A stretch of DNA of 64,000 nt. It comes from Physcia stellaris. Taxonomy: Eukaryota; Ascomycota; Lecanoromycetes; Caliciales; Physciaceae. Of this stretch, positions 6,906-64,000 are shown piece by piece (within the stretch, counting starts at the first letter, position 1; every line of letters starts with the position of its first letter). The notes under the pieces were generated by a model. It was not told the origin of the DNA. It ran no database searches and worked only from the letters and a program-made list of their open reading frames with translations. The stretch covers positions 620,001-684,000 of the forward strand of contig JABSSW010000005.1 in NCBI GenBank assembly GCA_018902385.1. The letters run 5' to 3'. Both the position numbers and the translations under genes were made by a program.

Positions 6906-7770
6906 TAAATCCTATCATTTCACGATATTCTCAGCAAATTTCGTTTGTTGTTGTAATTTTGCTTTGTGAACTTGCTTTTTTGCTCGCAAAATTCTGAGCT
7001 TTTTCTGTTGTGCTGAATCGAATTTTTGATGTAACATTTTGCATAACGTATCAAGTTTTTTCGTCAAATAGTTTTGTAAATACGTTGTTTGTTCGAAAAA
7101 TCATTGTTTTGCAAAGTTTTGAAAACAATATCGAACAACAAAATGCGATTCGATTTTTGAATGTTGTTTTGTTTTGCGTTCAAAATTCGTCAAAAAGTTG
7201 TTGACGTCGCGATAAATCGCACATGATCATGTTTCGTAAAATAAATTTGAATTTTCGAAATATTTGTTGAATACACAAAGATTTGAATAAAAAATGTCGA
7301 ATTTTCGTTGATAAAATGAATCGAAATGCGACATGATGCAAAGAATGTTCTGTAATGAGTCGAGCAAACAGATAAATAAATATATCGATAAATAAACAGT
7401 AAATAATAGATAGATATGTTGATGTGATTTCGAATACAATAAAATCAAATAATATTTTTCAACGAAATTGATGATATTTTTCGATTTTGATGTTTATTCA
7501 ACGACGTTGATACGATTTAACGACGTTAATTGCTGTTAAAAAAAACTCATAAACAATTTGAAAAGTTGTCAATCGATTGATGATGCTATCATTGTTACGA
7601 TAAATCGTGATGTGAATGAATAATATACTTGATTTTTTTATTTAGAAAATTGCAAAACACAAATGAAAGTTTTGAAACGAACGTTAATCTTTTCTGATCA
7701 AATTATTCACAAAATTCAATTTTGATTTTACGTTTTGCATACGTAACATGCAAAATTCATAATAAATGTG
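6906..7770. other. AT-rich mutated flank, unidentified
   Basis: The sequence moves from island to AT-rich composition over about 100 bases, and then shows the same loss of CC, CT, AG and GG as the elements beyond it. Only short frames occur. It is presumably a fossil repeat into which element A inserted; no domain was recognised. Confidence 0.5.
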
Positions 7771-7957
7771 TATCATGAATCGTGTTTGAATAAACGTATT
7801 ATTGATTAATTAAACGAAAACAATAAATTTGCAAAAACAAATAAATACAAAATGTTGAAATTGCAAACAATGTGCGACGTCAAGTTTTTCGTTGTTCGAT
7901 CACATATTATATTAATTATTTATTTGTCAAATTTATTTGTCAAACATGTTCGTAACA
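7771..7957 (-). repeat. LTR of element A (left copy)
   Basis: Matches 14191-14414 and the LTR at 37331-37567. It begins TATCATGAATCG, consistent with a decayed TG end, and ends GTAACA. It is 37 bp shorter than the right copy, which carries an internal segment of about 40 bp absent here. Confidence 0.88.
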
Positions 7958-10900
7958 TTATTTTTTTCGCGAACGTCGTTTCGACGATTCGTTGTTGTTT
8001 CGAAATTGAAAAATTTTGTTGAAAATTTTGTTGATTGATTTGAATGTTTGCAAAATTCAAAAATTTCACGATCATTATTTTTCATTTTTAAATATTTCGT
8101 TATTGTTTTAAAATTCGATAAAATTTGACAACAATTTTTGAAAATGTTTTTGACACGATTCAATTTTTCATGCGATGTAAATTTTGATTGTAAATAACAT
8201 CGAAACGATAACGAAAATTAAAAATTGCGAAAACGTTGCGAAAATGAAATCGAAATGAATGTATTGAATTCGAAATTTTCAAATTTTAATCGAACGTAAT
8301 TTCGATTAATGTCAACATAACGTTTTTTTCGAAAACGACGACGATTCGTTGAAAAATTTGATTCGTTGACGACGTTTTGAAATATTAAAATCAACGTTTT
8401 GAACGATTTTGAATTTGCAATCGTAAAATGAATGCGATGAAAATCGTTCATCACGTCGCGAACATTATCAAATTTTTCGTTGTCGACATAATATTATGTT
8501 CGATTATGCGATCAATTCGATTATTTGACACGATATTGAAAACGATTGTAATAATATCGAAATTTCAAAATATCGTTCATTTTTCATTCGAAATTTTCGT
8601 TAATTATGACAAAATCAAAAAATTCATTGATTTGATTTTCGAATAAATCACGAAAATTTTTGCGCAAAAATCAACAATAAAACACATCGTAAATATGCAT
8701 AATTTCAAACAATTCGAATCGATATGAATTGTTCATACGTTGTAATATTTTGTAAAAATTTAATTTTTTGTCATCGAATTTGTCAAACGATTTGATCGTT
8801 TTGATGTTTCGTCGATCGAAAAAAACGAAATTTTTTCGACGTATTTTACGATTTTTCGATGTTTGTTGATTTGAATTGTTATACGTTTTTGAATTATTTT
8901 TGTATGATTTCGTACGTAATTGAAAATATTTTGCATCGTGTCGATAATATTTTTTGTTTTAACGATCAAAAATCGTTTTTTCGTTATAACATACGAAATA
9001 AAATTTGATGAAAAATTCATACGAAAATGAAAATTTTTATTGATGAAAAATGATAATAATTTTGTTGTTACAAATATTGCGTTATTGTTTGCAAATTCGA
9101 TCATGAATAATCAAACGTTTCAATCGTTTTGCATGTAATTGCAATATTGTCGCAATTGTTTTTCGATATTTTGATTGATTTTTTCGATTTGTTCATCAAT
9201 TTTGAATGAAAAACGATAAAAAATTTACATTTGATGTCGAAAATTCGACAAAATGTTTGTCAAACGAACGATATGAATTGAAAATTTCGATCAAACGTTA
9301 TCGAAAAAATAATTCATGTATACGAAATACGTAATTGATGAATATTTTGATCGTGATTTCAACATTGATATTTTCGTCGTCGACGATACAAAATACGTAA
9401 TGACGTTTTTTGTTAAATTTGTCAATTATCGTGCATATGACATTATGATCGTGAACGTCGAACAATTCGATAATGAAATTCATTGATATGTCGATTCAAC
9501 GTTGCAAAAATATAATCAAAAAAATAAATAAATCATTTTTTGCGATTTTTGAAAATTTTCGTGCGTTGATATTCATAACAATTACGTACGTATCAACGAA
9601 TCGTTTTACGCATGTTAAATCAATAATAATCGCGATATATAAAATTTTTCATGCGATTAAAATTTGAATGTTTCGAAACAAAAAATTCATGAATTTTTTT
9701 GAAAAAATCAACGAATAAAAAAACATCGACGAACATTCAAAATTGATTTTTTCGATACAAAACGTCGTTTTTTTAATGCAATTTCGTAAATTAATTTCAT
9801 TCATTGAAATAAAATTTTGTTCGATGATTTCACGATAAATCGTGCAATCATCGTCAATTTTGTTGACAACAAAAATTCGTTTATAAATAAATTCGTCAAT
9901 TTTTATCGCGTGAATTTCGAATCGTTTCGAAATAAACAATATTTGTTTTCGATATTGATATCGTTCGTCAATATCGTTTTTGATCGTGAATCAAACATAC
10001 GAATCAAAATATTTGTTTTAACGTTTTGAATTTCGAATTGAAATTGAATAATAATATTGAATTTCGAAAAAATTTCTGTTTAACGAATTTGACGAAAAAT
10101 GAATTTTTTCGACGTCATGAAAATTTTCAAATTTTTGTAATCGATAAAAATTTTAATCGATTTTTCAATGTTTTCAAATTCAAAACGTCAATATTTTAAA
10201 TAACGAATAATGATTAACAATTTTTTGTTATAAATTTCGTAATTGCATTCGATTAAAATCATATTGCGATTATAAAAAACAACAAAATGCAAAAATTTTT
10301 CGTCGTCGTATTGAAATAATATTTTCGCATTAACGTAATCAAAAAATCAATTTTTAAAATAATTTGTTTGATTCGATCGTAATGTCGTAATATGAAAATT
10401 TCGATCATTGTTTTTTTGAAAAAATTGAAAATTTTTTCGATTTCAACAATTCATTCGAAATTCACAAATTTTTTGATCATTCGAATGAAAATTCGAATGT
10501 TTTTCGAAAAATCACGAATGAATCGTTTGTAAAAATTGACGAAATTCACGAAAATTTGCATTTTTTTCAAATTTGTAAAACGTTTTCAATTGACAATGAT
10601 TTTTATTTTTTCGAATTCATGCGAAAATTATTTATCGATAATATGACGTTCAAAAATGTCGTTTTTTTTTTTGAAAAATTCGCATTTTTCAATATTTATT
10701 TGTAATTCGATTTTTTTGAATTTTTTCAACATTTTACGAACGTGAACGATATGTTTTTTTTTGAATTTGTTGTAAATGAAAATATCATTTAAATAAATTT
10801 GACAAAAATCGTTCAAAAAATTGAACAACAAATCGTTTATGTAATGTTGTCAATTCGCGAATTCGTTGATCAATTCGAAAAATAATATTCGATATTTGTA

Positions 10901-13900
10901 CGATTTCATGAAAATAACGAATGTAATAAATTTTTCATTTTTTTCATTCATTCGAAATTTGTTGAAAATCGATATGATATTCAATTTGATCAAATATTTG
11001 CAATTTTGCATTTTAATTAAAATTTTTTCGATCAAAAAAATGAAATATCGATTGCGTTTCGTGATGTGATTAAATCGTCGATAATTCACACACAAACGTA
11101 ATTAATCATTTGATTTGATTGCAAATAAAACGAACGAAACGTATGTTGTTTGATTGAATACGATAAAATTTTTTTGAAAATTATTTTTCAAATATTTTTT
11201 GAATTTTTGAAATTTGAATTCGAACAAAAAATATATTCGATTTCGAAATAATATATTGTTATCGTTTAAAAATTCGATTTTGTGATCGTAAATTCGATGC
11301 GACAACAATTCAATTGTTTTTTGAAAATCGAATATTTTTGATAAATGTTTGAAATATTTGAATATTTTTTTCATTATACGTTCAAAAATCGATTTGATTT
11401 GTTCATGTTTCAAATTTTTTTGATCATGACAACAATTTTCAACGATTCAAAATTTGTTCGCAATGTTTTGAACGCGAAATCGATTTGATTGATTGTAATG
11501 AAAAAACATTGCATTTTTTGTTTTCGATTTTTGAAATCAACGAACAAACAAAAAAAAATCGCATTAATTATCGCGATATTCATTGAATCGTTTGAATTCA
11601 ATTTCGAAAATGAAAAAATTTCGAATTGTTGTTTTTTGATTTTTCAACGTTTGTTGCGTTGTTTTTTCAAATTTTTTTTTTTTGATGAATGTCGTTTTCG
11701 TAATTGTTGTGATATCAATTTTTGAATTATTTGATTCAACGACGAACGATTCGTCATTTTGATCGATTTTCAAATGAATAAAGCAATCGAAATATTTCGA
11801 ATCGAATACGTTTGATTCGTTTTGTACATAAAACGTTGAAAAATTAAATTGCGAACGAAATAAAATTGTATATCGAAATTTTATTGCAACAATATGTTTC
11901 GCGTTATTTGTTTTCGATAAAAAAACATCGCGACGTCAATTAAATACGTTTCATCGACGATTTGAATCAAAAGTTTTCAAACGTCGAATTTGCATTGTTT
12001 TGATGAATATATTGTCATGATGATTACATTTGAACGATTTGAAAATCAATTTATCGTAAATCATATTCAAAATAATTTCATGTTTGTTCATTCACGATTT
12101 TTTTAAAATTATCGAATGATTGTTCAAATCGATGATGAACAAAAAAATTGTCAATTCGAAATGCAAATCAATTATCAATTTGAAATAAATGACATGAATT
12201 ATTGAAAAAATTTGACGATCGTCGAATTCGATAATGAATTTCGATTTTAATAAAAATACGAAATTCATGTTCAACATGTTGCATACAAATTGCGCAATTT
12301 TTTTATCAATGAAAACATAATCAATTGCATCAATATTTATTAAAATTTTTAATTTATGTTTATTATCGTTGAATAACAACGTACAATTGATGATTAAAAA
12401 TCGTTTGACAAAAAAATCAAACAATTCGTTATGATAAATAATTTTTTTTTTAAACATTCATCAATCGCGTTTTTGATGTGAATTATCAATTTTTCGAATC
12501 AAATTCGTTCGATTCGTTGATCATGTTCATGTAAAACATTTGCATTTTGTGTCAATAACGTTTTTAATATTTGTGAACGTTCGAACATTTTTTTTATACG
12601 TGATCGATTTCATCGCATATGAAACATTTGTTCATGACGATCAATTTGTCAATCATCGAATCACGAATTTTGATTTCAACGTTGAAATGAAAATGAACGA
12701 CAAATTTCACGAAAAAAATCGAAATAACAAATTTCGTAAAAAATATCGAAATCGAAACGACAAAAATTGATTTGAATTGAAACAATTCAAAACGTTGTTG
12801 ACGTGTCGCGATTTTTTTTTCGAAAATTTGATTGTCGATTGTATATTTGTTGCAAAATGATTCGAATTTCGTCGAACGTAATGAATTCGCGAAAATATAC
12901 ATTCATCGTTTTTTTCAAATTTCAGAAAAAAAATTTCATTAATTTTTCGATTTTGATGATTTCGTTATAATCGATTGAATTGTTAAAACGAAAAAAAAAT
13001 GAAATAAAAAAATTGAATGTTCGAAATTGAATACGCATATTGCGTTTGAAATCAAAATTTTCGAAAATGAAATTCAAAAATTTCAACATCATATGTCAAT
13101 TTTTAAAATGATTTATGTCGATATTACGTATCGATTGTATGTGATTATCGACATCATTTTCAATTCAATCAATCACAATAATGATTGCAATCATGTTCGT
13201 GTCATAATGATCGACGTTAATCGTCATTTTATCATGCATTTTTGTTTTTCAAACACGTCAAATAAATTTCATTTCGTCGATGAATTTAAAAAATTTGAAT
13301 GAATTTTTGAATGTCGTTTGCTTTTATTGAAAAAATTAATTACGTTGATTTCGTCGTCGTTGTTTTCATCGTCGTTATTCGAATTTCGTGTACGATTGCG
13401 AATCGTGATCAACAAAACGTCATGATTTTTTTGAAAAAAATGTAATCGTGTTGTTTGATTAAAAATCGATCACGCGTTTGTTCGTAATTAATTTTTAATG
13501 TATTCATTTTTTTTACGAATTTTATCGAATTCAACGTTTGTATTGATCAATTCGTCACGATCGACGTTGACAATATTGTACAAATTTTGATATTGAATCA
13601 AAACGTTCAAATAATTGTCACGATCAATGCGTAATCGATCAAATTTTTTCAAAAAATCGATAATTTTTTGATTGATTCATCATTTCAATTGATCGATGAT
13701 GACGATGTTCAAAAAATGAATAATTTCGTTATTTTTCATTTTTATAAATTCAATCGTTGAAACAAATCGACAACGTTTGAATTGTTCGACGAAATTTTCG
13801 TCGAAAAAATTGTCATTAATTTCGTGCAACATACGATTCACATTGAAACGTAACGTTTTGAAACGTTGTTTTTTCGAAATAGAAAATTCGAAAAAAGTTG

Positions 13901-14190
13901 TTTCGTGATGATTTCGAATCATAATTAGAAATGAAAAGTTGAAAAATGAAAAAAAAAATTAATCGAATCAATTTTTTTTTTTATCGTCGAAAATATCGTC
14001 GTTTGCGTGAAAATTCGATTTGTTATTTTACGATTTTCGTCAAATATTTCGTCAAAAAAGTTTTCGATCGTTTGTTTGATTAACAGAACTTTTCGTCGTT
14101 TGTTTCGTCAAAAAAATTTGATCGATTTGAAATTTTATTTTTGAACGTTCGCGTATCACGACGAGCGATAAAATTAAAAATTTATTGTAA

Positions 14191-14414
14191 TATCATGAAT
14201 CGTGCTTGAATAGACGTATTATTGATTAACTAAACGAAAACAATAAGTTTGCAAAAACAAATAAATACAAAATGTTGAAATTGCAAACAATGTGCGACGT
14301 CAAATTTCAAATCACGTTAATTTCGACGTAAAATTAAAACATAATTCGTTGTTCGATCACGTATTATATTAATTATCTATTTGTCAAATTTATTTGTCAA
14401 ACATGTTCGTAACA
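14191..14414 (-). repeat. LTR of element A (right copy, 5' LTR)
   Basis: The partner of 7771-7957, retaining a middle segment (near 14305-14350) also found in the B/C LTR. It ends GTAACA directly before the ATGTG duplication. Confidence 0.88.
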
Positions 14415-15310
14415 ATGTGTTGTGTTCAATTTTTCGCAATGTTTGCAACGTTTTAATACGATTTCGATCATAATTTAATGCGTATTCGATAAACTTTCGA
14501 TATTATTAATTATTTGAATAAAATTTATTTCGAATTTTAAAACGAATTTTTGATTTGTATATTTTATTTATTAAATGTAAATGTTATTAAAATGCGAAAT
14601 CGTTGAAATTACAAAACAATTACAAAATGTTAATTTTCGCAATTTTATCAAACAAATTTAGTTTTGAAATTTTTCGAAAAAAAAATAAAAAAAAAAAAAT
14701 TCAAACATATTTGTTTTATTATAAAAAATATTTTATGTAAAAAATCGTAATTGTGTAAAAAACAATTACACGTTCGTAACGATTCAAAATTTCAAAAAAA
14801 TATTTGTTGATTTTAATCGAAAAATATAAATTGCACATCGTAATAAATAATAATAATAACGATTTAAAAATTAAATTTTTATTATTAAAAAATTTATTGT
14901 ATTAATGAATTAAAATTAAAATTTTAAATTTAATCGAATCGTTATTTTTATAAAAACAGAATTTTTATTTGATTAAATATTTAAATTTTTTTTACAAAAA
15001 TATTTAAAATGTTAATTAATTATTGATTTTCGAAATTTAATGTTAAATTTATTTGTGAAATTTTTGATTTAATTAAATCGCATATCGTTTGAACACATAT
15101 CGCATAAAAATTTTATCTAAATTTTTGATCGTAAAAACGACATCAATTTTTTTTCGTTCGTATTCAAAAACAACGTTAAACACAAATTACGACAGCATTT
15201 ATTGTTTAGCGTCAAAATCATATCTTTTAACGAATTCAAACATTGAAGATTGCAGCAAAGCGATTTAAAATTGCGCTGTATTAAACGATATTACATCAAA
15301 ATCAAATGTG
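14415..15310. other. AT-rich flank right of element A, with a dispersed repeat
   Basis: No gene. The part at 14425-14680 is a mutated repeat that recurs at about 29720-29990. The rest is extremely AT-rich with long A and T runs. Normal composition returns between about 15180 and 15330. Confidence 0.6.
14425..14680. repeat. Dispersed AT-rich repeat, copy 1
   Basis: It shares colinear blocks with about 29720-29990, for example GATATTATTAATTATTTGAA and AAATGTTATTAAAATGC. No coding motif was recognised. Element A sits immediately to its left, so the repeat probably predates that insertion. Confidence 0.65.
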
Positions 15311-16397
15311 TCGTTAAGAAATAAAGTGCGACGCTAGATGAGACGACGCGCGAAAGATTTGCACGTGAAATTTCACGCCGAAAGAAGAAATCGATATCAA
15401 ACTCGATAATGAATGTGTCGCACTGATTACTCGCTTGGCCGACCGTGGAACCGGGAATCATTACAAAATCCTAATTTACGTTAATCACTCGCTGCGGGAA
15501 GGATGTGTACGTCCAAATGTGGGCCGGCCCTAGCGCCGGCAACTTAGACCTCCGTAGAGATGATCTCCCAGCCTTTCATACCAAGCCTATGAAATCCCGA
15601 AAGAGTAGGTCACGATAATGGTGAAAAATAGATATCAGTACTGGCCGCCCGTGGCGCAGTCACTAGCCGCCAGTTGGAAGGGAATAAGCGTGAGTCAGTG
15701 GATGAGCTGACCGAGACTAGAAAATGCGGGTGCGCGGGTATGCGACTGACAGTCTTCGTCTTCATCCCATGCAGCCACCCACAAGCCTACGATCGGTGTC
15801 ACTTCCCTTGGATGGCCACTGACATAAATTGATGCACACTAATGCTCCGTGCCTCCGAATATTGGTATGTACAAGCGAAACCTAGTGGTTTGTTTACATT
15901 CACAGAATCCAATAACAAACCACCGAATCCATCAACTATCCACCCGCCAACATACTTCCTGCGGGTTTGGCTAGGTCGCTATAGCCATCTAGCGAAGCAG
16001 CCCATTCTAGCAGCACATGGCTAGCGGAGGGGGCAAACTGGGCAATCAACAACGGCGATACTTCCATAGGTTCAAACGATCGGACATGTGGGGTAGAAAA
16101 CAAAAAAAAAGCAAAGACAGAGAGTGGATGAGACGCACAGCGAAAATGAAATGAGGAGGGGAAGAGAAAGGAAATCATGCATCTTAAATACGTGGCTGGA
16201 GTCCGTGCTCTGCTCTTTCTCATTTCGCGTCGCCCCGGCATAAGCACCCCTGGCTAATGCTGCGTACCTCAGCGTGTAATTATGACGGAAGAAATGGGAT
16301 GCGGTGGGCAACTTCTCTAGAGCTGTGGGTTGCAATAGCGTCACTTCTGCTTAGGAACACTTAGCGGTAGATTGTAAAAGCTATTCTTAGTCGAACA
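15311..16397. other. Host island, no recognised gene
   Basis: About 1.1 kb of ordinary composition. Short frames on both strands (for example 15936-16344 minus) lack motifs and codon structure. It presumably includes the promoter of the plus-strand gene starting at 16398. Confidence 0.45.
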
Positions 16398-17665
16398 ATG
16401 AATGAAGCCGCCCAGATCATCGAGGGTGTCCGAGCTAATTTGACTCGACTGAGCACCAAACGACTGCCGTCCCGAGAAGACCAGCGTCGCGAGCGGCAAG
16501 TCAAGAAGCAGCAAGAACATCTTCTCGATGAGACGGTCTGGAACAGCGACTGGCAGCGGAAGAAAGAGCTGGTTCGGGATATGCTTTTGGACATCTACAC
16601 ACATCGAGGTAAACCTGGAATCTATATGTGCTTCACCGCGGCTACGTTTGGAAAGCTTGGTCGGCTCGATGGCGTTGGGCGACAATGCTTTCTCTCCGGT
16701 TTCAAAGACCTGACTCGCAATTTGGGACGTATTCCAAGCCTACAGCAGCTTGCCGAGGATGCACTTGACGCAAGGGTGGATCAAGTGTTTCGATCGATGT
16801 CCACACCTCCGGCTGATCTAGATCTTTTCGAATGTCACTCAGATGAACAATTGAACCTACCACAAAGCCCTGGAGCATACTTGAATGAGGCAGATCTTGA
16901 TAAGGGAGGGAAATGGCTGACAGGTAAGCACCGCCAAATCAGCAAAGGCTTCCGTCCAATAACATCCCAGCGGGTATGGCAGGATGTAATGAACAGGGCC
17001 CTGAATCCCCCTCTTTGACCGGGTGCTGGGGCTCTGAGTCGATGACAGGTGAAGAAGACCCTGAAGGCGCAGATCCAACGTGGTAACAGCTAGCAGTCGA
17101 CGGCGCTATCGACATACCAGAAATAAGCGAACCATCGGACACCGAAGAAATACCCTGCGTGCAAGATTTGGAGTTGAATTCGCTGCTCGATTTCCTCCAG
17201 AGGTACAGCGAGGCAAATTGCTCGAGCAAGCTGCGCAACACCACCGATCGCTTCAAACACCGCATCGACATTTCATACCAGGACGGGAAGCCTGCGATCA
17301 CGATAGCGCTATCATTGACATCGCGACAGCTACTACAGTTTCTGATGGATCATCTTTTGAATGACGAGATTGTCGACGTTGGCGTTTTATCTGCTCAGCC
17401 TAGACAGTGGATCTATGCCGAAAACTGGGGTACAGCTTCTGCCCTTGCACTAGGCATTAATTTCACTCCAGCAATGGTCTTGTCTTGCGCGCGGAAGCAT
17501 TTTGGGAGTGATTATACCATCCATCTTCACGCCGATATCTCTGGAAGACCAACACCGTTTGTGAATATCCAACACAATGAATCATTGTTAGCTAGGATCA
17601 GCTTTAGCTTCGTGGAGGGACTATCACTGTTTCAGCATCTCCGCCAAGGCGATGGGGAGCTCTGA
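16398..17665 (+). CDS. Orphan hypothetical protein, two exons, possibly decayed
   Basis: I do not recognise this protein. Exon 1 (16398-16923) ends at a GTAAGC donor. It encodes an amphipathic, strongly basic N-terminal helix (SREDQRRERQVKKQQEHLL) and an Asp/Leu-rich middle. The coding part ending at 17665 is clearly protein-like (QPRQWIYAENWGTASALALG). With the obvious acceptor (intron 16924-17048) the second exon holds one in-frame TAA at 17084-17086. With a later CTAG acceptor (intron 16924-17093, 170 nt) the TAA is removed and a 365-residue protein results. A 99-nt in-frame segment (16609-16707) also has intron-like ends and could be spliced. So this is either an intact gene with an unusually long intron or a recent pseudogene. 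No membrane segment or signal peptide is seen. Confidence 0.5.
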
Positions 17666-17952
17666 GGAGAGGGTAACGTTAGACATCATCAATGATTCTA
17701 CGATTATTACCTTACACGTCACCAGACAATAAAGCCTCGCAGCTAACCGCCTAACCTCAAGGCGCAGTCGTAAGTGACGCTTGTCCAATTATGTAAGAGC
17801 TCCTTTGCAGTATGCCAAAGCTAAATCCAGAACTTGTAAGCTTGAACAGGACAGACAAGGAGTTGTAGCGCGAACTAATACCTCAACCTGCTAGTTCTCA
17901 GCTCCAGCTATGCAATTCAGGTAAGTTCACCTTAGAGTTAAAGGTACAAGTA
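17666..17952. other. Spacer between convergent genes
   Basis: 287 bases between the ends of the plus-strand orphan gene and the minus-strand NmrA-like gene. It presumably holds both 3' ends. No further feature was recognised. Confidence 0.45.
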
Positions 17953-19079
17953 TCAGAACTTGCTGGCCGCATACTGCCTTCCAAACCACTCTCTTGCTGT
18001 GATTAGCCGCGCTTGGTCATACCCTCTTCCCAGTGCCACTGCCGTAGCACGCTTTAGCTTCGCTGCTGTGCCAATCTCGCTGGGTTCGGGGCTGAAGTAA
18101 CGGCCTCCCGTAGTCTGCGTGAAGCCAAACATGAGCTTCACGTCGTCCAACTCCGCGATTCCATGAATATCGAATGCCTCCCACGTCGGCAAGACAGGCT
18201 GATATCGAGACCTTTTCCCAGTCACTTTATGCTTCATATCAGCGAACCAGTCTTTGGGAGCTACAAGGTACACCTACCAGCCTCAAAATCCCCCACCAAC
18301 TCTTCAAATGTCCGCATATCACTCGCGCCATGCACAACCTTCCCATTCCATCTTTCTGGGTCCAAAAAAACCCCTTGCACCAGATCACCAAAATCATCTT
18401 TGATTCCCAGAAATGGGACAACATCATCTCCGCCCCAGCGCGGTACCCGAAATGTTAAGATCCCTTCTGCATCCGGCTGGTGTGGGAACCCGCCAAAGAC
18501 TGGCGCAACTTCTTTGACGAGAAAGTTCTCCAGGTACCATGCCGCATTAATGGCGGTAATTGTGTTAAATCGATTGAGACGCTTCGCGTACTGCTCGGTT
18601 TTGTACTTCACTTCAATGGATCACTTGCGTCAGCGTGAACTCAGAGTGCCGGGGAACACACTTTCCATCGCCCTCATCATCACTTTCCCGCCTGTCATCT
18701 CCCCGCACGGCGGCCCCGAGCTGAGTACCACATGCTTCACCCCTGCATCAGCAGCTGCATCCACAATCACCCTTCCCAAATCAAACTCCGTAAGCCTTCC
18801 GCCGTCCATCATAAACACCGGATCATCAGAGTTAGTATTCACAAACACGCCCCAGGCCCCATGAAATGCGGCCAGCATGTCTTGGCGGTTGAAGGCGTCG
18901 GCGTGGACGACTTCGGCGCCGGCGGAGGCGAGAGCGAGCGCCGCAGACGAGGTGGTATTACGGGTGAGGGTGCGTACGCGGAAAGTGGAAGGGTTGGCAA
19001 GGAGGGACATGGAGACGGACGAGCCTTGGTTACCGGTAGCGCCAAGAATGGCAATGAGATGGGGGGCGTGGGGAGGCAT
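17953..19079 (-). pseudogene. NmrA-like NAD(P)-binding protein, apparently frameshifted
   Basis: The first exon (18662-19079) begins MPPHAPHLIAILGATGNQG, the Rossmann glycine motif of NmrA-type atypical SDR proteins, and continues with VRTLTRN and an NSDDP segment. A 51-nt intron (18611-18661, GTGTGT donor, GCTGAC branch, GAAG acceptor) joins in phase to MKYKTEQYAKRLNRFNTIT, which fits the family. Near 18268-18275 the frame that carries GDFEAGR ends in a stop, while the family-like continuation VYLVAPKDWFADMKHK runs in another frame to 17953. No intron of plausible size explains this, so a one-base frameshift is likely, in the genome or the assembly. Expected length is about 355 residues. Such proteins sense redox cofactors or act as reductases; the role here is unknown. 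Confidence 0.75.
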
Positions 19080-19356
19080 TTTTGGGACGATGGATGAGGT
19101 ACTCGGTGAAGAGGAAGCGACGGTTTTGCATGGGGTGCCGAGTTTTTATGTATGTACTTACGGAGATCATTAAGAGAGCGGAGGATCGGATGAGGCTTCA
19201 TAAGCTGCCCTGTGTCCTTGGCTAAGACTTGTCGATCAGTGCATGTGGTGGTTCGGTTGGATGACGAGATATGTCGTGACCAATTTGCTGCACGAAAATG
19301 CAGGATTGTAGTGACCGTGAAGACTTTCTCAGACTATAGTAGTTCTTGAAGCATTC
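19080..19356 (-). promoter_or_regulatory. Upstream region of the NmrA-like gene, to the island edge
   Basis: About 277 bases of ordinary composition upstream of the NmrA-like ATG, ending abruptly where AT-rich sequence begins near 19357. No specific site was recognised. Confidence 0.35.
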
Positions 19357-25935: not shown

Positions 25936-25939
25936 AGTG

Positions 25940-29150: not shown

Positions 29151-29155
29151 ATACA

Positions 29156-51777: not shown

Positions 51778-54700
51778 TTATATCGAAATCATTTTTTTCA
51801 TGTTCGTTTATGATACGCGAGCATTCAAATAAACAAAGTTTTCTGTTTCAAAACTCAAGAATTGATAGAGAAACATAATAGACTCGTATCGTTTGATCAT
51901 TCAAAGAGAACAACAAAACGTAACAGATTGATTGTGAATGCGAAAAAACGAAACATAATAAATTCGTTTGTCGATTCAATTGAATATTTTGACAGACGAA
52001 TTTCAGCGATAATCGATGTCACGAAAATAATTTTTTCGAACGTCGATTCAGATTCGTTTCATTATTAATTGACAAAGTTTTTTGTTTCAGAGATGATTCG
52101 ATTACATCATCAAACACATATCAAATCATTTCGAAAAAATGACATTCATACAAAAAAACATCAAAAAATTAATCAAAAATTTCATTTTCAATGATATTCA
52201 ATTTTTTATCATTTCGAACGACATTATACTCAATCGATTATTTAAGTTTTTTATATTTCGATTTTTTTTTTTTTTTCAATTCAATCATTTATTATTTTTT
52301 ATCATCATGATTTTTTCAATTCGTTTGAAAGAACGTCAACGATTCAACGAAATAAAAAAACTGAATATTTTCGATTTTAATCAAAAAATCGATGATTTTG
52401 AACGTTTTTTCGATATTTATATGATCACAACAGTGTTCGATTTTACAAAATCGAATTTCATCATGATTTTGACGTCAATTGACATATTCAGTTTTTCGAA
52501 ATTAAAAAAAACGATTTTTGAACAATTTGCACGATTTTGAAAAATTTTGAAATTTTTTCGAAAAAATAAAACAAAAACATCAATATCATTCGTGTTTGAA
52601 ACAATCGCGAAAAATACATAAAAACGAAAAATTTAAAACATTTTTTAAAATTCGATGAAATCAACGTTCAATTCGAAACAAATCGAATTGAAATTCATAA
52701 ATATCGTATTAAAATCAACAAGCGATTCGTCGCTAATCGTAAACAAAAAGAAAAGACAAAAAAAGAATTTTCGAATGATCAAATTGTCGACGTTTTCTCA
52801 AAAACTAACTATAACGAAAAAACTGATCTTTTCAAAACTCGCTCAAAGAACAAGAAATTAATCTCTAAGTACATCGATTTTTTTATTTTTTATGAACACA
52901 AGAATTCGAACATTTTCGATTACATTCGATATGATATTTGAAAAAATAAATGCGTAAATAAGTTGAAAATCAATGCGAATTGATATTTCATTAAACAACA
53001 ACAAATCATTGCAATCGTTCAATGATTAAAAAACAAAATCGTCGAACACGTTTACATTCGACGTAAAACTCAACGTCATTTCTTTTTCGATCACGAAAAA
53101 GTTTTCAAATTGTTCGATATCATTTACGTCGATACAAATCATGATCGCAATATTCGACGTCAATACGACGATTTCAAAATGAAATTTTCGAATGTATACA
53201 GCGAATTTTATTCAAAATTTTTATTATTGATTAATCAATTATTCAACAAATTTGATGACGACAAAATTCATGACTTGAAAAAAAAATTTATCGTTAAATT
53301 CAGATTGATTATGAATAATTTGAATAATTTCATTTCGTTTGATGTTTTTATCGAAAAATTCAAACAATCGATAATCGTCATCGACGTATTCAGAATGACG
53401 ACGATAATTTTTTCAAATTTTCGAATTATAAGCAAACATTTCGAATTCGTCGAAACGAAAAGTATTTTGCGAAATTGATCATCAATTACATCAGTTCAAT
53501 CGAGAAGAAGATTTACAAAACTGTCATAGCTCGTTTTTCTGTAAGAAAGAAATGTCGTCGTTGTGATAGTTTGAAACATTGATGAAAAAAATGCAAATCA
53601 AACAAGTCGTTATTCGAATGAATAGACGATTTGATTAAAAAAAAAATATTCAATCTTCAAAATATTGCAACGATTTTCGATTATGTTAACAATACATTCA
53701 TTGTTTTTTCATTTTTCGATAAATCGAAAAACTAATTATTTTTTCGAAAACGCGAAAAATTATCAAAATTTGTTCACGAAATTTTCAGCATAACATTTTT
53801 AACGAATTTTTTGTAAATTTTTAATTAAGAAAATAAATTGTTTTTTGACAATCGAAAAATCATGATTCATGATTTAATTGATATCGATGTTTTGAATATG
53901 TTTTCATTAATGAAAAAACTGCGCAAAAGTTTGTCATAAATTAAAATTAATTTCAATATTTTTATCGAGATTCAAAAAAATTTTAATTTCGAAAAACAAA
54001 ATCAAATTTATTATTCATCAAATATTGTTCAAAATGACGATACAAAATCATTCAAAACTTTTCGTTTCTTTGTTTATTATCAAATAAAACAACATTCGTT
54101 GATTTTAAATAAATCATGAATGAACAAACATGAAATGATTTTCAACATGATCAATGACGAATGTTATTTCACATCAAATCATTGTGATCATGACGAAACA
54201 TTTTTTTTATCGTTTCGATCGTCGATATTTCAAAAATTATTCAGTTCAAACAAGCAATCGAATAAAACATTTTATTTATCGTTTTTTGAGCGATTTTTCA
54301 CGTCGTTTTTTTTTGCGAACGTTCAAAAATATCAAATATTTCAAAAACGATCAATTTCGATTTCGTTTCGATCGATTTTTTTCGCTTTATCGTTGAAAAC
54401 TGAATCGAAAAAAAATCGTCGTTAAAAAATTTTTGAATCTCGATTTCAAATATGTCATCGAGAAAATAAACAAAAACTATTTTTCGAATAAATTTTTCAA
54501 AAAAAAGCAAAGAATGAAAACAATACGCGAAACACAAAAATCGAATTTGATCAACGTTTCGATCAAAAAATTCGATTTATTCAAAAATTTACGCGACGTT
54601 TTAGTCGAAAATTTAAAATTACGATTTTCGAACATGAAAACGACGAGCAAAATTTCGATTTTGACGCATCATTAAATGTCGTTTTTATTGACGCGATTGT

Positions 54701-57700
54701 TTTTCAATCGTTAGCGAAATCTAGAAAAAAAAAAAAAAATCAAAACATTTTTTTTGATCATGAAAAAGCTAAACGAAATTATCGACAACGTCAAAGAAAA
54801 TTTAGTCAAAATAAAAATTGATTTCGATTTGAATTTCAAAAAAATTTTTAAAATCATGAAGATCGTCGTCGAAAAATTGAAACGTAAAATTTTTGAGTTT
54901 TTTAAGCGATTCGAAAGCGTATTTAATTCGAAAAAAATCGACAAATTGTTTTCGCATCGATTTTACGATCACAAAATCGAATTGACGAAAAATTCGAATC
55001 AATTATCTCGAAATCGAGTTTATTTTTTATCGTTTAAAAAGCTCGAAACTTTTCAAAAATATTTACACGATAATTTTCAAAAAGAATTTATCAATTCAAA
55101 CAAAACGTTTTATGTTTCGTTCATTTTATTCGTCGTTAAATCGAACGAACAGTTTCGTTTGTGTGTCGATTATCGAAAACTGAACGTCATAATCAAACGT
55201 AATAGTTATTTTATTTCGTTGATCGAAAAATTTTCGCAAAAATTATCGATTGTAAATTTTTGTTCAAATTGAATATCATATTTGTTTTCAATAAATTTCG
55301 AATGAATTCACAAAGCGAAAATTTCATTATTTTCATATGTTCGTTAGACATCTACAAATATCATGTATTGTTTTTGAATTAATCAATGATTCGATCAGTT
55401 GACAATATTACATGAACGACTTGTTGTTCGAATACATCAATCATTTTTGTCAAATGTATTTGAATGATATTTTCATTTACAACAAAACTCGAAAACAACA
55501 CGAGCGACATTTCATTCAAATATTTCAAAAATTAAAAAGTCGATTTTCAAATCGATATCAAGAAATGCGAATTTTTTCAAACAAAAGTTTTTTTTTTCGA
55601 CGTCATATTATCAACAAAAAACTTGCGCATGAACTCAAAGAAAATGCAAAACATTGTCAATTGAATTCGTTTCATTTGCATCAAAAAAATGCAAACGTTT
55701 GTAGATTTTTGCAATTTTATCGACGTTTCATCAAAACATTTTCGAAATTCGTCAAATTTTTAATTCGAATGATCAAAAAAAAATTAATTTCGAGTGAATC
55801 GATTTGATCAATGAGACGTTCGAAATTTTGAAAAAACAAATGATCGAAATTTCAATTTTTCGACATTACGATCGCAATCGTAAAACGATTTTGAAAATCG
55901 ATTTTTCGAATTGATGTCTAGATGAATTTTTTTCAATACGACGACGACGAAATTTTTCATTCGATAATTTTTTCAACAAAAAAGATGATTTTTGTCGAAT
56001 GCAATTACGAAATATATGACAAAAAACTTTTTTAGTCATTATTCGATGTTTAAGCATTGAAGATTCGAATTCGAAAATATCGACGAATTCGTCGAAATTT
56101 ACATCGATCACAAAGATTTGAAAATCTTTATGACAAACAAGAAATTCATTTCTCGTCAAGTGCGTTGAATCGAGATTTTGACTGATTACAACATTAAAAT
56201 TCAATATCAATTCGACGTCAAAAATGTTAAAATTGATGTTTTGATTCGAATGTTTGAATTTCGTTCGGCGAAAAACGACGAGAAAAAACTCTATAAAAAG
56301 CAAATTTTTTTTTTTTTTTTCGATTACAGTTATGTTCAATAGACGCGATGAATGATTTGTACGAACGTGTCATGCAAATCAATCGCGAGAACGAAAATTG
56401 TATTAGTCATCGTCAAATTTTGATCGATGATCAAATCATCAACGAAAAAGTAAATTTGCGAGATTGTTTCGAATCGAGACGAGATTCTATTTAAAAACGA
56501 GAATTTCTGAATATCAAATCGACTAGATTTTATGATTGAAATAATTCGTGACGTTCACGATCAATTTTTCTGTGCACATTCGAGCATGAATCGTACTGAA
56601 AAACTCATTAAACGTTATTACTATTGATTTAGTATGAAACTACTCATCAAGCGCTATATTCGTAATTGTCACAAATGTCAGCGATCGAAATTTTCACACG
56701 ATAATCGTCACGAACTACTAATTTCATTGTCGATTTCTAATCAACGATGAATTGATATATCGATGAATTTCATAATCGAACTGTCTGATTTCAGAAACAA
56801 CAATGTCATTTGTATTATCATCGATCGTTTGATCAAAAAACGTCATTACGTTTTTGCGTAGTCGATGACGATAATTTGACAATTCAAATTTGTGTCAAAA
56901 TATTGATACATTACGTATTTCGTACTCATGAATTATTCTTTTTCATTATTTCAGATCGAAATGATCAGTTCGTAAGTCGAATTTGAAAAATTTTTGTAAA
57001 CGACTAGAAATCAAATGTAAATTGTTCATTGCTTTTCAATTTGAAATTGATGATCAAATCGAACGAATCAATCAGAATATCGAGATTCGATTACGTTTGT
57101 ATTGCAATTATCGTCAGAACGATTGATTGAATTGAATAAACATCATGAAATTCGTTGACAACAACGATGTTTCAGCAATCATCGAATTCACTTCATTTTT
57201 CATCAATAAAAATATCATTTTCGAATGATTTTCGAATCAAATTTAGATGATTACGACATCACAAAAAAAAACGTTTGTTGACTAAACAGAGCGAATTCAT
57301 TGTCGAAAAAATAAATCGTATCATCGAATACGTCAAAGTCAATGCTGTCAATGCAAAACAAAAAATGATTGTTCGAGTCAACAAATCTCGATTGTTTATA
57401 AATTTTGATATAAAAAACTATCTTTGATTAAATCGTCGTCATATAAAAACGACTCGTTCATCAGACAAGCTCGATGACAAAAAATTGAATTCATACAAAA
57501 TAATCAAGAAAAGAAATCTCGTTTATGAATTGAAATTGCTCGACGACATGCACATTCATTCAATTTTTCATTTTTGATTGTTGAAAAAAAATTCTAAAAA
57601 CTCGTTGAAAAAACAACATAACGATTTTTCAAAATCAATTATTGCAAATGAAATGTCTGAATGAAAACTCGATGATATATTGAAATTTCGATATCATTAT

Positions 57701-58795
57701 CATCGATTACAGTATCGTTGCAATTGATTCGAATAAAAATTTCACGATCGTATTTGATATTATGTCGACGACGACGAATTTCAAAATGTTCAAAACATCG
57801 TAAATGTTTTTCACGATGTTAACTCAAAAACAGCAAAATTTGCTTTTGCGAAATGACTAAATCATGAATTTTATTGTTTATGATCGATCAAAAGATTGTC
57901 ATCGAATTCGTTACAACTCACTTTCACATTGATTTCAATAATTTTTTTTTTGTCATTCGTTTCGTTATCATTTCGCGTTGTTTACAGTCAGAATTTACGT
58001 CGCGTGAAAAATTGAATCGTGTCAAAAACATTTTCAGAAATTGTCGTCAAATTTTATTGAACAATAAAGTAGTAATGTAAAATGCTATGCAATGAAATGA
58101 GTAAACGCAAATTGTCAGAAAAATTCGAACATTTACGAGTTCGTCAACAAAATTCTCAATTGCTTATTAATGACACGCGAAGTTATCTGTAAGATTCGTT
58201 CAAAATACTTGTTTTTCAAGAAATTTAATACATGCATATTTCGCTGAATGCAATGTACGAATCAAACGTCGTATATGCGATAACATCAACGCGTTAATCG
58301 TGATGATAAAAATTCTATCGACATGATCAAATTGCTCGTCTCGTGATATCAATTTGATGTTGCAAAAATTTTCAAAATTGTTGACGCGCTCAATTGTTTG
58401 TTTACTAATGTTCGTCGAAATTACTTTTGATGAATTGTATGAATTGATCATTTTTCACGACATTCATTACATTCACGCTTTGTCGCATGCAATGTACACA
58501 TCAATTTTCGCATACGTCGAAATGTCAAGATTTTCAGCATTGTTACGATGATTTTATTAACATGATCAGATTGCTCATTTCATCGTAAATCGATCTGATG
58601 TTTTCACGATTCTTGACGAATCGATTTCGCGAACGAAATCGATTTCACAACATTTCGAATCTATTTGTTCATTTCATCAATTATTCAATTCAACGTCACT
58701 CAACAACGCATCTAGATCGCGCAGAACGTTCATCGTTGAAAACAGAAAAATTCAGTTGATCGTTTCGAGACGAAACTGAAAAAAACGAGAAATAA

Positions 58796-59012
58796 TGTAA
58801 CGAACGTATATCGAATTCAACATCTGACAGAATTAACATCGAATTAACATCGTTATTTTATCACATCGAATGTTAGAATCGAGATTCGTTTTGACACATT
58901 CAAGAAATCAAATCTTCTACATATGTTTTTGCAGATTTCATGTATTTGCTTTTCATTTCGATATTTTCGTGTAGTTATGTAGTAATATCATATCTCTGCA
59001 TAGCATTTCACA
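58796..59012 (+). repeat. LTR of element F (3')
   Basis: 217 bp, ending TTTCACA before AATCA. Confidence 0.92.
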
Positions 59013-60743
59013 AATCAGACGAAATCATCAACAGTGAATCATTTTATCGCGTTGATCAAAATCAGTTCGTCACAAACAATGAAAATCGTTTTTTTCGTCA
59101 TTTAAATTTACGAGTTCACTTTCGACAACGTTCAAAATCGATGTCAGCGATTCTGATTTTACGAATCAGCACTTTTCGATTCGATTTTTAATTTATCATG
59201 TCGACAAGTTTACAAAACATCGTCGTTTGTGCATATCGAAAAGTTGCATCAAAAACATTCTTGACGTTGATCATATCAACAGTGATCACTCGAAATTTGT
59301 CAAATGTTTCGAAAAAATGTTTGTTAATTGATATATACGTGATTTGAGCAAACATTTACGAATTTATTTACATCATTGTTCGAAATGTTTCGTTTATCAA
59401 ACACGTCGTCATCAATTTTACGATTCATTACAATTTATCGAAAAATCATCAATACTTTTTTATATCATTATCATTCATTTCATTTTCGCATTGTTTATAG
59501 TCATTGAAATCGAATATGATTTCGTCATGTCGATGATTTGTAAATTTAGCAAACGCGTCATTTTCGTAATCGAAAAAAGCATTTGATCAACGTTTCAATA
59601 AAAAATAACTTTTTTGATCGATTGAACGTGACAAATTGAAATACGTTTAACGTCATTTTGTTCGATAGAAATCGCAAATTTCTGTCTGAATTGTGAATTA
59701 CAATCTTCAAATATTTTGACGTTAGATTGCTGTATTCTATCGTCTATCACGCACAAATTGATAATCAAAATGAAATTATCAATCAAATTGTCGAAATAAT
59801 TTTACGCTATTTTATTGTCACACTCGACAATTTTGACAAATGATCGTTCACACTATCACGTTTACAAGTCGAATTAAACAACGTTTCGTCAATTACAATC
59901 GATAAATCGATCAACGACATTATTTACGACTTTACATTTGATCAATCATTAAATTTTATCAGTTTGAACGCGTCAATTATCAATCAACATATCGTCAAGA
60001 CAGAAGCAATCGACGTCATTTTCTTCGTCATAATGTTTCAAAAGCGACATTACGATCGTCGACATCAATCGACATTTTTGCTGTCGACGAATGAGCGTTA
60101 CTTCAATTGAACAAAAAATATAGCATTTCAATTATCGTTAACATTATCAAAAATATGATTTACAATATGTCGATTTTTTCAAAATGCTAAAACGTATTGA
60201 TCGATTCGCTTATAAGTTTGAAATATTTGATCATTGACGTTTGCATTCGATTTTCATTATAATTCAATTAAAATTTTGTTCGATTTTTGACAACGATTTT
60301 TATCATCGCTTTCGATCGAATCAATTCGATTTTGTCTTTGTAAAAAATGACATCGAAACGTACAAGTTTTTCGAACTTGACAAGTTATTCAACAAACGTG
60401 TCATCAAAAAAACAGAAACGTAACGACACAATATTTAGCACGCTGAAAAATTATGATTTTCAATTCGACAGATGAATTAATATCAAAAATTTGAACAATG
60501 TCAAGAATTTGATCGATCAATATGAAATTACAATTGAAATTACGATGTCAAACAGAAAACAACGACGAAATAATTCGACTACAATTCAATCAACATCGAC
60601 GTTGATTACAATTCAATCAATATCGACATCGATTTCGAATTCATTTGACAAACGTCGTTTTGACAGATTTCGTAAAATACAAACAATGATGTGAAAAGAT
60701 GAAACAACGAAAACGTTGTTAAATTTGTTTGTTCGAAAAAGAT

Positions 60744-60932
60744 TGTCACGATATGTGATTTGATTGATTTGATTGATGTTTGAAAATTTTTGTCATTTGT
60801 TTGCTTGTTGTTGACATTTGTTTGTCTGTTGATCGACTAACTTTTTTTGTATTTAATTAACGTGACTTTTTATATATCGTGTTTTTGCACAAAATCAATG
60901 ACATTCTTTTATCATTTCAATAACTCGTTACA
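60744..60932 (+). repeat. LTR of element E (3')
   Basis: 189 bp, TGTCACGATATGTG...CGTTACA, followed by GTGTT. Confidence 0.92.
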
Positions 60933-62584
60933 GTGTTAATAAAAAAATTGTTTTCGATATCGAAATTATTCATTTTTATAAACGTTTCGTCGATATTTTG
61001 CAAATTTTATTTTTTCGTCAACGATTTCGAAATGCAATTTATGTTAACGACAAAATTTATAAAATTCATTTGCGATTATTATTTTTCAAAAATATTGACG
61101 TTGACGCGAATAAATATATTATTTAATTAAATTTTATATGAATTCGTTACGACAACGACGATTATCGCAACAAATTTTTTCAATTTTTCGAATCATTTTT
61201 GATTTCGATAAATTTTAAAAACGTTTTGATTTTGTTTTTACAAATCGCATTGATTTCGACGATTGTTTTTTTTTTGAATGAAAACAATATTTTTTTTTGT
61301 GTTTTTGTTCATCGCAATTGTAACAATTTCGATTTTTTTTCGTCGACGCGTCGATATCGTTTTTTTTAATTTTGTCAAATTGATTTTTCGTTTTATCAAA
61401 TTGCGTCAAAAAAATTTTTTGAACGATTTTTTATTTTTTTGACGTTCACGATTATCGAACGACGAAATTTGCGAAAATCGAAAACGTTTTGAAAATTTTT
61501 GATAAAATGACGATCGTTTCGTATTGACAATTTTAATCAAAATTTTTTGACGAATCGTCGACGAAATTGCGTCGAATATAATGATTTTTCGTAAAATGTC
61601 GTTCAAATCGTAAAAAAATTTGTTTTGTTTAATATTTTCGATGACATTTAATTTTGTTTTTAACGATTCGAAATGCGTTGCGAATTCATTTATCGTTTTT
61701 TTGTTTGACATTATTGTATTTTTGATTCACGTCAAAACGACGAATTTCAAAAAATTCGACATCGTTATGAAAAAATTTCGAAAAATACGTTCAAATCATC
61801 ATCAATTTTTTTCGATATTGATTGATTTTTTGATACGATTTTCACAATTCGATTGACGTTAAATCAAAAAATTGTTGCGTTCAAATTATTTTGATACGAA
61901 ATTTGAAAAAATAATTAAAATTTGTTTCGAAAATTCACGCGACGTTGCGAATTCACGATTGATATTTTTTAATGTTTTTGACGAAATAAATCGATAAATT
62001 TTTGAATTTGAATTCGATAATTCGTCGAAAACGCGAACGTTTAAAAACGAATTTATTGTGAAATTTTTCGTTGTCGTCATTGTTATCGTCGTTTTCGTTA
62101 TTGAAAAACGTTTGTAAACGTTTTCGTTTTTTTAACAACGCGAATTGAATTAATTTCGTTTTTTCGAAATGACGTTGTATCGAAACGTTTGATTTTTTTC
62201 AAAAACAATTTATATTCACGTTTGTTTTTCGTTTTTTTTTTCAATTATCGTTTGAATTGTTCGCAATTGTGCGTAATCGATTTAATTATCGAATTCGAAA
62301 TCGTTGACGTTTGTTAAAACGACGATAATACGTCGAAACGACACGCGAAAAACAATAACAATACGTTCGTCGTTTGATTGATTTTCATAAATTAAAATCA
62401 ATTCGTTTCGTTAATCGATTTCAAATTAAAACGATTTCACGATCGTGTTATCGAATGATAATTGTTAAAACGAAATAACGATATTATTTCGAATTACGAA
62501 CGCAATAACAACAAATGTTTTCGAAATTTTAAATGATGTCATTTAATCGAACAATCATTCACGAAAATTGAATTGATTTAAAAT

Positions 62585-62798
62585 TGTAAAAAAATATGCG
62601 ATTGAATGATAAAATAATTACAAACAAACGCAATGTTTACAAAACGATAATGAATTATCGTAATAACATTATGAATAATGACAAAATTGAATCGTGAAAA
62701 CGAAAAAAATTGAAAATTTTCGAAATGTTATATTTTATCGATCAAAACGTTAAATTCGATCAAATTAACGTATTTGACGATCTTGACATAATATAACA
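62585..62798 (-). repeat. Right terminal repeat of element D (5' LTR)
   Basis: About 214 bp, TGTAAAAAAATATGCG...ATATAACA. It matches the two ends of 40007-40651 and abuts the resumed element B/C at 62799. Confidence 0.78.
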
Positions 62799-64000
62799 AT
62801 TAACGTAATCAAAAAAATTAATTTTCAAAATGATTTGTTTGATTCGATCGTAACGTTATAATATCAAAATTTTCGTTATCGTTTTTTTGAAAAAATTGAA
62901 AAAATTTTCGATTTCAATAATTCATTCGAAATTCACGAATTTTTGATTATTCGAATGAAAATTCGAATTTTCTTCAAAAAATTATAAATAAATCGTTTGT
63001 AAAAATTGACGAAATTTATAAAAATTTGTATTTTTTTAAATTTGTAAAACGTTTTCAATTAACAATAATTTTTTTTTTTTTTCGAATTTATACGAAAAGC
63101 ATTTATCGATATTATAACGTTCAAAAATGTCATTTTTTTTAAAAATTTGCATTTTTCAATATTCATTTACAAATCGATTTTTTTAAATTTTTTCAACATT
63201 TTACGAACGTGAACGATATGTTTTTTTTTTAAATTTGTTATAAATGAAAATATAATTCAAATAAATTTAACAAAAATCGTTTAAAAAATTAAACAACAAA
63301 TCGTTTACATAATATTGTCAATTCGCGAATTCGTTGATCAATTCGAAAAATATTATTCGATATTTGTACGATTTCATGAAAATAACAAACGTAATAAATT
63401 TTTCATTTTTTTTATTCATTCGAAATTTGTTGAAAATCGATATAATATTCAATTTAATCAACAATTTGTAATTTTGCATTTTAATTTAAAAAAATTCGAT
63501 TAAAAAAAATATCGATTACGTTTCGTAATGTGATTAAATCGTCGAAAATTTGCACATAAATATAATTGATTGTTTGATTTAATCGCAAATAAAACAAACA
63601 AAATATATGTAATTTGATTGAATATAATAAAAAATTTTGAAAATTATTTTTCAAATATTTTTTGAAATTTTGAAATTTGAATTCGAACAAAAAATAAATT
63701 CGATTTCGAAATAATATATTGTTATTGTTTAAAAATTCGATTTTGTAATCGTAAATTCGATATAACGACAATTCAATTGTTTTTTGAAAATTGAATATTT
63801 TTGACAAATGTTTAAAAGATTTCGATATTTTTTTCATTATATGTTCAAAAATCGATTTGATTTGTTCGTGTTTCAAAAAATTTTTGATTATGACAACAAT
63901 TTTCAACGATTCAAAATTTGTTCGCAATGTTTTGAACGCGAAATCGATTTGATTGATCGTAATGAAAAAACATTGCATTTTTTGTTTTCGATTTTTGAAA

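Follow-up and report, generated by a model that had tools for sequence, protein, structure and literature searches.

Organization of the window

We analyzed a 64,000-nucleotide stretch of the genome of Physcia stellaris (GenBank assembly GCA_018902385.1, contig JABSSW010000005.1, positions 620,001 to 684,000 of the forward strand; hereafter the window, with positions counted from its first base). Along it, gene-like DNA near 50% guanine plus cytosine (GC; 1–6910 and 15378–19360) alternates with AT-rich blocks of 22.5–28.7% GC, which carry remains of long terminal repeat (LTR) retrotransposons that are diverged copies of one another. The blocks have lost nearly every cytosine followed by a pyrimidine (CpY), while cytosines followed by a purine (CpR) mostly persist. 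We show here that this depletion, the C-to-T changes between copies, and an order of loss among the targets are confined, within this window, to the AT-rich blocks with retrotransposon remains, a pattern that probably reflects a fungal defence akin to repeat-induced point mutation (RIP).

The retrotransposons differ in how far they have decayed. Element E (19662–29150; on the minus strand, judging from its integrase open reading frame [ORF] at 20938–21627) is CpY-depleted, has LTRs of ~194 base pairs (bp; 19662–19855 and 28957–29150) and retains an integrase fragment. It is split by a nested young element (25774–27863; the island), which has ~160-bp LTRs, a GC content of ~51%, and CC and CT at gene density throughout its interior. 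A half-mutated element, P1 (46367–60932, plus strand), has the ends TGTCA...TTACA and contains reverse transcriptase (RT) fragments that fell below the Pfam cut-off; nested within it is a second half-mutated element, P2 (51556–59028, plus strand), delimited by a direct repeat pair (51556–51792 and 58791–59028) that is LTR-like and whose ends are approximate. Perfect 5-bp target-site duplications flank three of the elements (E, ATACA; P1, GTGTT; island, GAACA).

The remaining AT-rich DNA is mostly saturated with mutation. The first block (7771–15377) is mostly saturated and holds minus-strand retrotransposon remains (RNase H and an integrase zinc-binding domain); the block at 27864–46366 (22.5% GC) is saturated and contains copies of parts of the first block, the end of element E, and an RNase H-like fragment (33082–33411, plus strand) below the Pfam cut-off; and the DNA at 60933–64000 (23.1% GC) belongs to the same saturated class, with 62799–64000 a copy of 10329–11536. 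When whole frames were scanned with stops read as X, RT_RNaseH (2.1e-7) and Integrase_H2C2 (5.7e-8) exceeded the Pfam cut-off; one such scan yielded RNase H plus integrase and one further scan yielded no family. Among ten AT-block ORFs, Integrase_H2C2 (2.7e-6) was above the cut-off and RVT_1 (2.7e-5) below it, five had no Pfam family, and one had only weak, unrelated matches (Fib_alpha, 0.0095; Occludin_ELL, 0.012); PEX11 (0.0089) and PNISR (0.048), which appeared alongside true-looking matches, were taken as chance. The features typical of LTR retrotransposons (TG...CA termini on the LTRs, target duplications of 5 bp, and domains of RT, RNase H and integrase) are thus present among the remains, though not all of them in each element, and the RNase H and H2C2 models suggest Gypsy rather than Copia affiliation.

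The 2.1-kb island also contains a C2H2-type zinc-finger ORF (26073–27158, minus strand; PF13894, 0.0016, below the cut-off), and its zinc-finger stretch is identical at 12 of 23 residues to one in the half-mutated element (48411–48803, plus strand), so both may derive from zinc-finger-carrying elements.

Loss of CpC and CpT from the AT-rich blocks

We counted dinucleotides in the AT-rich blocks as a whole (51,014 bases: 6913–15377, 19362–25773 and 27864–64000) and in their interiors (deep DNA; 32,404 bases: 8000–13800, 20000–25600, 28000–46000 and 61000–64000). The blocks contain only 2 CC, 2 GG, 305 CT and 372 AG, together with 2965 CA, 2918 TG and 3060 CG. In deep DNA both CC and GG are absent and only 31 CT and 38 AG remain, together with 1640 CA, 1871 TG and 1967 CG. 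The same length at gene-like density would hold ~3,878 CC-type and ~4,150 CT-type sites, and base composition alone predicts ~408 CC, 464 GG, 1430 CT and 1454 AG, with ~1364 CA, 1524 TG and 435 CG. Expressed as the ratio of deep to gene density over equal length, survival was 0.000 for CCR, 0.000 for CCY, 0.010 for CTR, 0.022 for CTY, 0.78 for CA and 1.05 for CG, and the depletion was alike on both strands. Correspondingly, (CpT+ApG)/(TpC+GpA) was 0.017 in deep DNA versus 0.935 in genes. The effect is not due to chance, because every one of 12,361 overlapping windows of 100 bp taken from gene-like or island DNA contained at least one CC or GG. Hypermutation of the CpG type, which depletes CpG, is ruled out by a CpG density in deep DNA that is 105% of that in genes.

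Less decayed DNA retains more CpT. P1 has 2 CCR where 984 are expected and 530 CT where 1866 are expected, with CpA and CpG at 93% and 104% of gene density, respectively. In the outer rim of the first block (6913–7770), there are 0 CC/GG (~103 expected) and 33 CT/AG (~110 expected, so that CT stands at ~30% of gene density); CpA and CpG there are at 101% and 81%, respectively.

An earlier note on this DNA had drawn attention to the depletion, stating that every G in the AT-rich blocks follows T or C and that every C in three sampled lines lies in CA or CG. Recounting those lines gave 27 of 27 C residues (11 CA, 16 CG) and 24 of 24 G residues (8 after T, 16 after C). Its statement that CpY is nearly gone from both strands proved too mild for deep DNA, where CC and GG are at zero and CT plus AG at 69, and the dinucleotide counts matched in substance its prediction of CpC plus CpT far below expectation with CpA near it. 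The range that it gave, 6906–64000, is heterogeneous: the gene-like DNA at 15378–19360 and the LTR element at 25774–27863 have normal densities of both CC and CT, whereas 46367–60932 is only partly mutated, with CC gone and CT at 28–29% of gene density.

A simulated CpY rule nearly reproduces the composition of deep DNA

We converted CpY to TpY on both strands of the window's own gene DNA until none was left. This procedure removed about half of the G+C and yielded a GC content of.255 with, per kb, 140 CA+TG, 58 CG, 15 GC, 141 AT and 375 AA+TT; the values observed in deep DNA were.232, 108, 61, 12, 142 and 397, respectively. The shortfall in CA+TG (140 predicted, 108 observed) and the excess of TA (47 predicted, 70 observed) imply some additional loss of CpA. 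A CpA rule fit poorly, giving a GC content of.364 and a TA/AT ratio of 1.83 versus the observed 0.50.

Classical RIP is recognized by a TpA/ApT of at least 0.89 (1.1 in RIPper) and a (CpA+TpG)/(ApC+GpT) of at most 1.03 (0.75 in RIPper). Deep DNA has values of 0.50 and 1.26, on the wrong side of both thresholds, and none of 96 affected 1-kb windows passed those of RIPper. These indices, together with the CpA-rule simulation, rule out classical RIP. A 200-base stretch on the inner side of the edge at 15378 (14878–15077) has a GC content of only ~9%, below what the CpY rule predicts.

The scar is also visible in translation. GC falls from about 50% to 23–29% in the blocks. Proline, glycine and tryptophan make up 0.0% of the six-frame translation of deep DNA, and the TAG triplet fell from 21.8 to 0.3 per kb. 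Under the genetic code, C-to-T before a pyrimidine creates no stop codon, and G-to-A after a purine affects stops only by turning Trp TGG into TGA and TAG into TAA. The idea that the blocks keep their reading frames open was not borne out, in that stops made up 6.0% of six-frame codons in deep DNA versus 3.8% in gene-like DNA, although several ORFs of 100–230 amino acids remain.

Copies of the elements differ by C-to-T changes at CpT

Comparison of repeat copies allowed us to examine the changes themselves. From 35 self-BLAST pairs we aligned 14 for context counts. Transitions dominated, with 371 transitions versus 131 transversions among the seven saturated pairs and 28 transitions versus 5 transversions among the P1 and P2 repeat pairs, and C:G-to-T:A transitions were found on both strands of the repeated DNA, as expected of the RIP class. 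In the P1 and P2 pairs, C/T differences occurred at 24 of 35 CpT sites but at only 2 of 60 CpA and 2 of 32 CpG sites (Fisher's test, 5e-12 for CpT versus CpA and 1.5e-7 for CpT versus CpG); the P2 repeat copies contributed 14 CpT, 2 CpA and 1 CpG of these differences. In four overlapping pairs that matched half-mutated with saturated copies, the half-mutated side carried the C at 84 of 85 CpT differences. The C-to-T change at CpY that the earlier note proposed is thus shown, for retrotransposon copies, by pairs within the window.

We also followed the C sites of the half-mutated element in two regions, each represented by two saturated copies; C had become T in 94 of 129 comparisons at CpT, 153 of 498 at CpA and 145 of 468 at CpG. 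Much of the CpA and CpG change is ordinary divergence, because the families are only ~68–74% identical.

Two particular saturated copies, 7776–10325 and 37333–39991, are unequally mutated. Of their 220 C/T differences, 157 have the C in the first copy (102 of 138 for CpA alone), so that one copy has undergone more of the slow CpA/CpG loss.

CpC is lost before CpT

Across elements at graded stages of decay and the rims of the blocks, the targets were lost in the order CpC > CpT >> CpA >= CpG. This refines the pyrimidine preference advanced in the earlier note, with CpC hit before CpT. At the youngest stage, the two island LTRs differ at 6 of 20 CpC and 2 of 25 CpA sites and at none of 21 CpT or 8 CpG sites (CC versus CT, p=0.009), and at the saturated stage no CpC and ~1–2% of CpT are left. 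The precedence of CpC over CpT is not a chain effect: as long as CpR is spared, the only way for a CCR site to disappear is through its CpC. The related possibility that CC is favoured merely because either C can change is ruled out, as CCR, in which the second C lies in a spared CpR, is equally gone.

The block edges tell a similar story. Because we set edges by the last CC, CC is zero inside them by construction, and it is the adjoining CT that is informative. The edges at 6911, 15378 and 19361 are sharp, with CC falling from normal to zero within ~100–200 bases. Inside the first, the initial 100 bases of the rim keep 10 CT+AG; the last 200 bases before the second have 0 CC+GG and 13 CT+AG (CT at roughly half its density in genes); and the 100 bases outside the third have 3 CC+GG and 14 CT+AG. 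In the 100-base stretches at 6911 and 19361, CT is near normal where CC is already low. The final step of the order, CpA over CpG, is supported by the old copies only, with polarized CpG differences showing no direction.

Neighbouring genes and other features

The unmutated DNA at 1–6910 (49.8% GC), which served as the baseline, contains on its minus strand an NRPS-like reductase ORF (nonribosomal peptide synthetase-like; 528–3758; Pfam AMP-binding, 8.7e-57; PP-binding, 1e-13; NAD_binding_4, 6.1e-55) and a cytochrome P450 exon (4598–5758; p450, 5.2e-38) that appears to be followed by an intron-like GTGAGT...CCTAG. The adjoining carboxylate reductase and P450 (528–5758, minus strand) form a possible small secondary-metabolite cluster beside a mutated block. 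A whole-frame Pfam scan of the plus strand of 1–6900, with stops as X, found no family; the genes there lie on the minus strand. The unmutated DNA at 15378–19360 (50.9% GC) includes an NmrA-like gene (18264–19145, minus strand). Four of the nine ORFs in gene-like or island DNA had no Pfam family, a search of the window for tRNA genes found none, and its tandem repeats were uninformative. The content of the gene-like DNA suggests a filamentous fungus as the source.

A probable RIP-like process with a roughly reversed neighbour preference

The signature is real and very clean, and we consider it probable that it records a RIP-like fungal defence in which C is converted to T on either strand of LTR retrotransposons and of the DNA directly flanking them, with targets chosen by the 3′ neighbour in the order described above. 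That C is chosen by the base that follows it points to an enzyme that reads this base. A plausible candidate would be a cytosine methyltransferase of the DNMT1 type, from the RID/Masc1 or DIM-2 class, that recognizes a pyrimidine rather than an adenine at the 3′ position and acts in repeated rounds on duplicated DNA. Under such a scheme, elements would age from loss of CC alone when young, through loss of CT, to slow loss of CA and CG when old. Their proteins would be inactivated by the loss of Pro, Gly and Trp codons, with Pro rewritten to Ser or Phe, Gly mainly to Asp or Glu, and Trp to stop, and the CAA- and CAG-to-stop changes of classical RIP would be rare.

Several observations weigh against this interpretation or limit it. 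Within the window, mutation affects the LTR elements and leaves gene-like DNA intact, and yet the rim at 6913–7770 has no self-BLAST copy inside the window (a stretch of 69 bases at 7426 resembles another to 62%); this rim represents either leakage from the block or a repeat copied elsewhere. The youngest stage of decay comprises only 8 transitions, all of which are plus-strand G-to-A changes located in the first half of the LTR; a strand bias cannot be claimed from them, because that half of the island LTR has GG but no CC. At the edge at 19361, the first 100 bases inside have no CT or AG, so that here CT persists no longer than CC. Between the two LTRs of element E there are differences at 7 CpT but also at 6 CpA sites, and the four overlapping pairs of half-mutated and saturated copies differ at 237 CpA and 230 CpG sites in addition to CpT. 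Old saturated copies differ mainly at CpA (218 sites differing, 357 shared) and CpG (119 and 430), which shows either the same process or a second one reaching those sites. The earlier note's view that CpA and CpG survive accordingly holds for the most part only, with CpA at 78% in deep DNA and both dinucleotides behaving as slow, secondary targets. The main weaknesses are that the data come from one window of one species, from which the nature of the enzyme, and the premeiotic timing or methylation link put forward in the earlier note, can only be surmised.

The slow loss of CpA could instead mark a second layer, in which a CpY-specific mutator was followed on old copies by ordinary CpA-preferring RIP or by decay of 5-methylcytosine. 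In the seven saturated pairs, which have 30 CpT differences and no shared CpT, CpA differs more often than CpG (218/575 versus 119/549, p=3e-9), and when the half-mutated copy was used for polarization, CpA differences had C in the outgroup 53 times and T 22 times. However, all of this is also explained by a single enzyme with the graded preference CC>CT>>CA>=CG, older divergence of the families may account for part of the CpA/CpG difference (131 transversions in the seven pairs), and the polarized CpG differences were directionless (C 21, T 20). We regard two layers as a minority possibility, although one to be kept in mind.

Somewhat less likely still is slow vegetative decay, in which an enzyme such as a DIM-2-like one methylates CpY in heterochromatin and the methylated cytosines deaminate spontaneously to T with no premeiotic RIP. 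This scenario would likewise leave repeats of different ages with different degrees of loss, flanking rims are affected, and according to a 2026 review DIM-2 of Neurospora methylates every CpN, preferring CpT. Against it, the loss of CC is total (0 in 32.4 kb) while CpA remains at 78%, and the 28 transitions versus 5 transversions in the P1 and P2 pairs indicate strong selectivity over background; the scenario would require near-total methylation of CpC and very little at CpR.

The CC and CT targets are dipyrimidines, and C-to-T change at CC is common to ultraviolet (UV)-type damage and to AID/APOBEC-type deaminases. Such processes are very improbable here. TC+GA stands at 122 per kb in deep DNA versus 137 both in gene-like DNA and in the CpY simulation, so that TpC is not far below prediction, and TCA and TCG are the commonest surviving contexts. 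The 5′ base had only a modest effect on the survival of CpT in P1 (7–13% left after T, 8–16% after A, 14–18% after G). APOBEC3G favours the second C of CC, whereas in the island LTRs the C that changes appears, on our reading, to be the one before C. The survival of TC contradicts this class of damage.

Finally, low-complexity AT composition or an ancestral habit of the elements, which would make CC scarce anyway, can be dismissed, since composition alone predicts hundreds of CC and over a thousand CT in deep DNA, the nested island has both at gene density, and repeat copies differ specifically by C/T at CpT.

A preference for CpA is regarded as a hallmark of RIP, and the indices used for its detection incorporate this preference. 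We lean slightly toward the broader proposal that a reversed 3′-neighbour code (CC, then CT, with CA and CG last), carried out by an altered RID/DIM-2 relative or another enzyme, strips Pro, Gly and Trp codons and TAG while creating new stops only by Trp-to-TGA changes, and that lineages with this code are scored as RIP-free because scans look for TpA. If so, the target choice of RIP methyltransferases can evolve, which would offer a comparative handle on the residues that read the 3′ base; genome surveys based on TpA indices would miss some RIP-active fungi; and transposons would be killed in a different manner, being stripped of almost all Pro, Gly and Trp codons, with new stops arising only from Trp codons.

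Comparison with known systems

The papers cited below were available to us in part, and the comparison is limited to the portions that were. As a class, RIP operates before meiosis through a RID/Masc1 (or DIM-2) methyltransferase. As in the RIP of Neurospora crassa (RID, DIM-2), transposons here undergo C-to-T change on both strands and become AT-rich blocks, with some apparent leakage into flanks, known in Neurospora-type RIP as leaky RIP. The Neurospora target order is CpA>CpT>CpG>CpC (quoted in PMC5496416); here it is CpC>CpT>>CpA>=CpG, TpA is not enriched, and the index tests are negative. RIPCAL already defines a CpC index and, for the Tad1 family of Neurospora, reports more changes at CpT than at CpA. 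RIP in crosses of Trichoderma reesei also converts C to T with a graded 3′-neighbour preference, but there CpA and CpG lead and CpC comes last (PMC5496416). A nematode-trapping fungus is reported to have a weaker CpA preference, and a lichen fungus with strong RIP blocks has been described by GC content.

CpT is a major or leading target, as it is here, in several fungi. It predominates with CpA secondary in Magnaporthe oryzae and Botrytis T4 and forms a signature in Sclerotinia (Amselem 2015, PMC4352252), is joined by CpA in Anisogramma (PMC10998396), and dominates the alignments of RIP-capable control fungi (PMC7882544). CpT families of Colletotrichum truncatum have a TpA/ApT of ~1.6 and a (CpA+TpG)/(ApC+GpT) near 0.1, with CpA largely gone (PMC6180176). 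CpA is also part of the signature in Magnaporthe, Botrytis, Sclerotinia and Anisogramma, and the available portions of these reports (Amselem 2015, Anisogramma, C. truncatum and the control fungi) do not name CpC as a signature. Loss of CpC, as seen here, has been reported as CpC-to-TpT double mutations in Monilinia and as the depletion of CpC and GpG in Stagonospora nodorum repeats, but the main pattern in both is the classical CpA-to-TpA. Microbotryum and other Basidiomycota share C-to-T change in transposons outside CpA; they target CpG (TpCpG in Microbotryum), the best-preserved context here, and a CpG signature is also found in Tuber.

The earlier note knew of no pyrimidine-specific form of RIP. 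CpT-led signatures are in fact in print, and what did hold up is that CpC as the leading target, or CpA spared to such a degree, was not found in the literature searched. The process resembles RIP in its action but does not pass the test by which classical, CpA-type RIP is defined, and it is best read as a variant of RIP with reversed preference.

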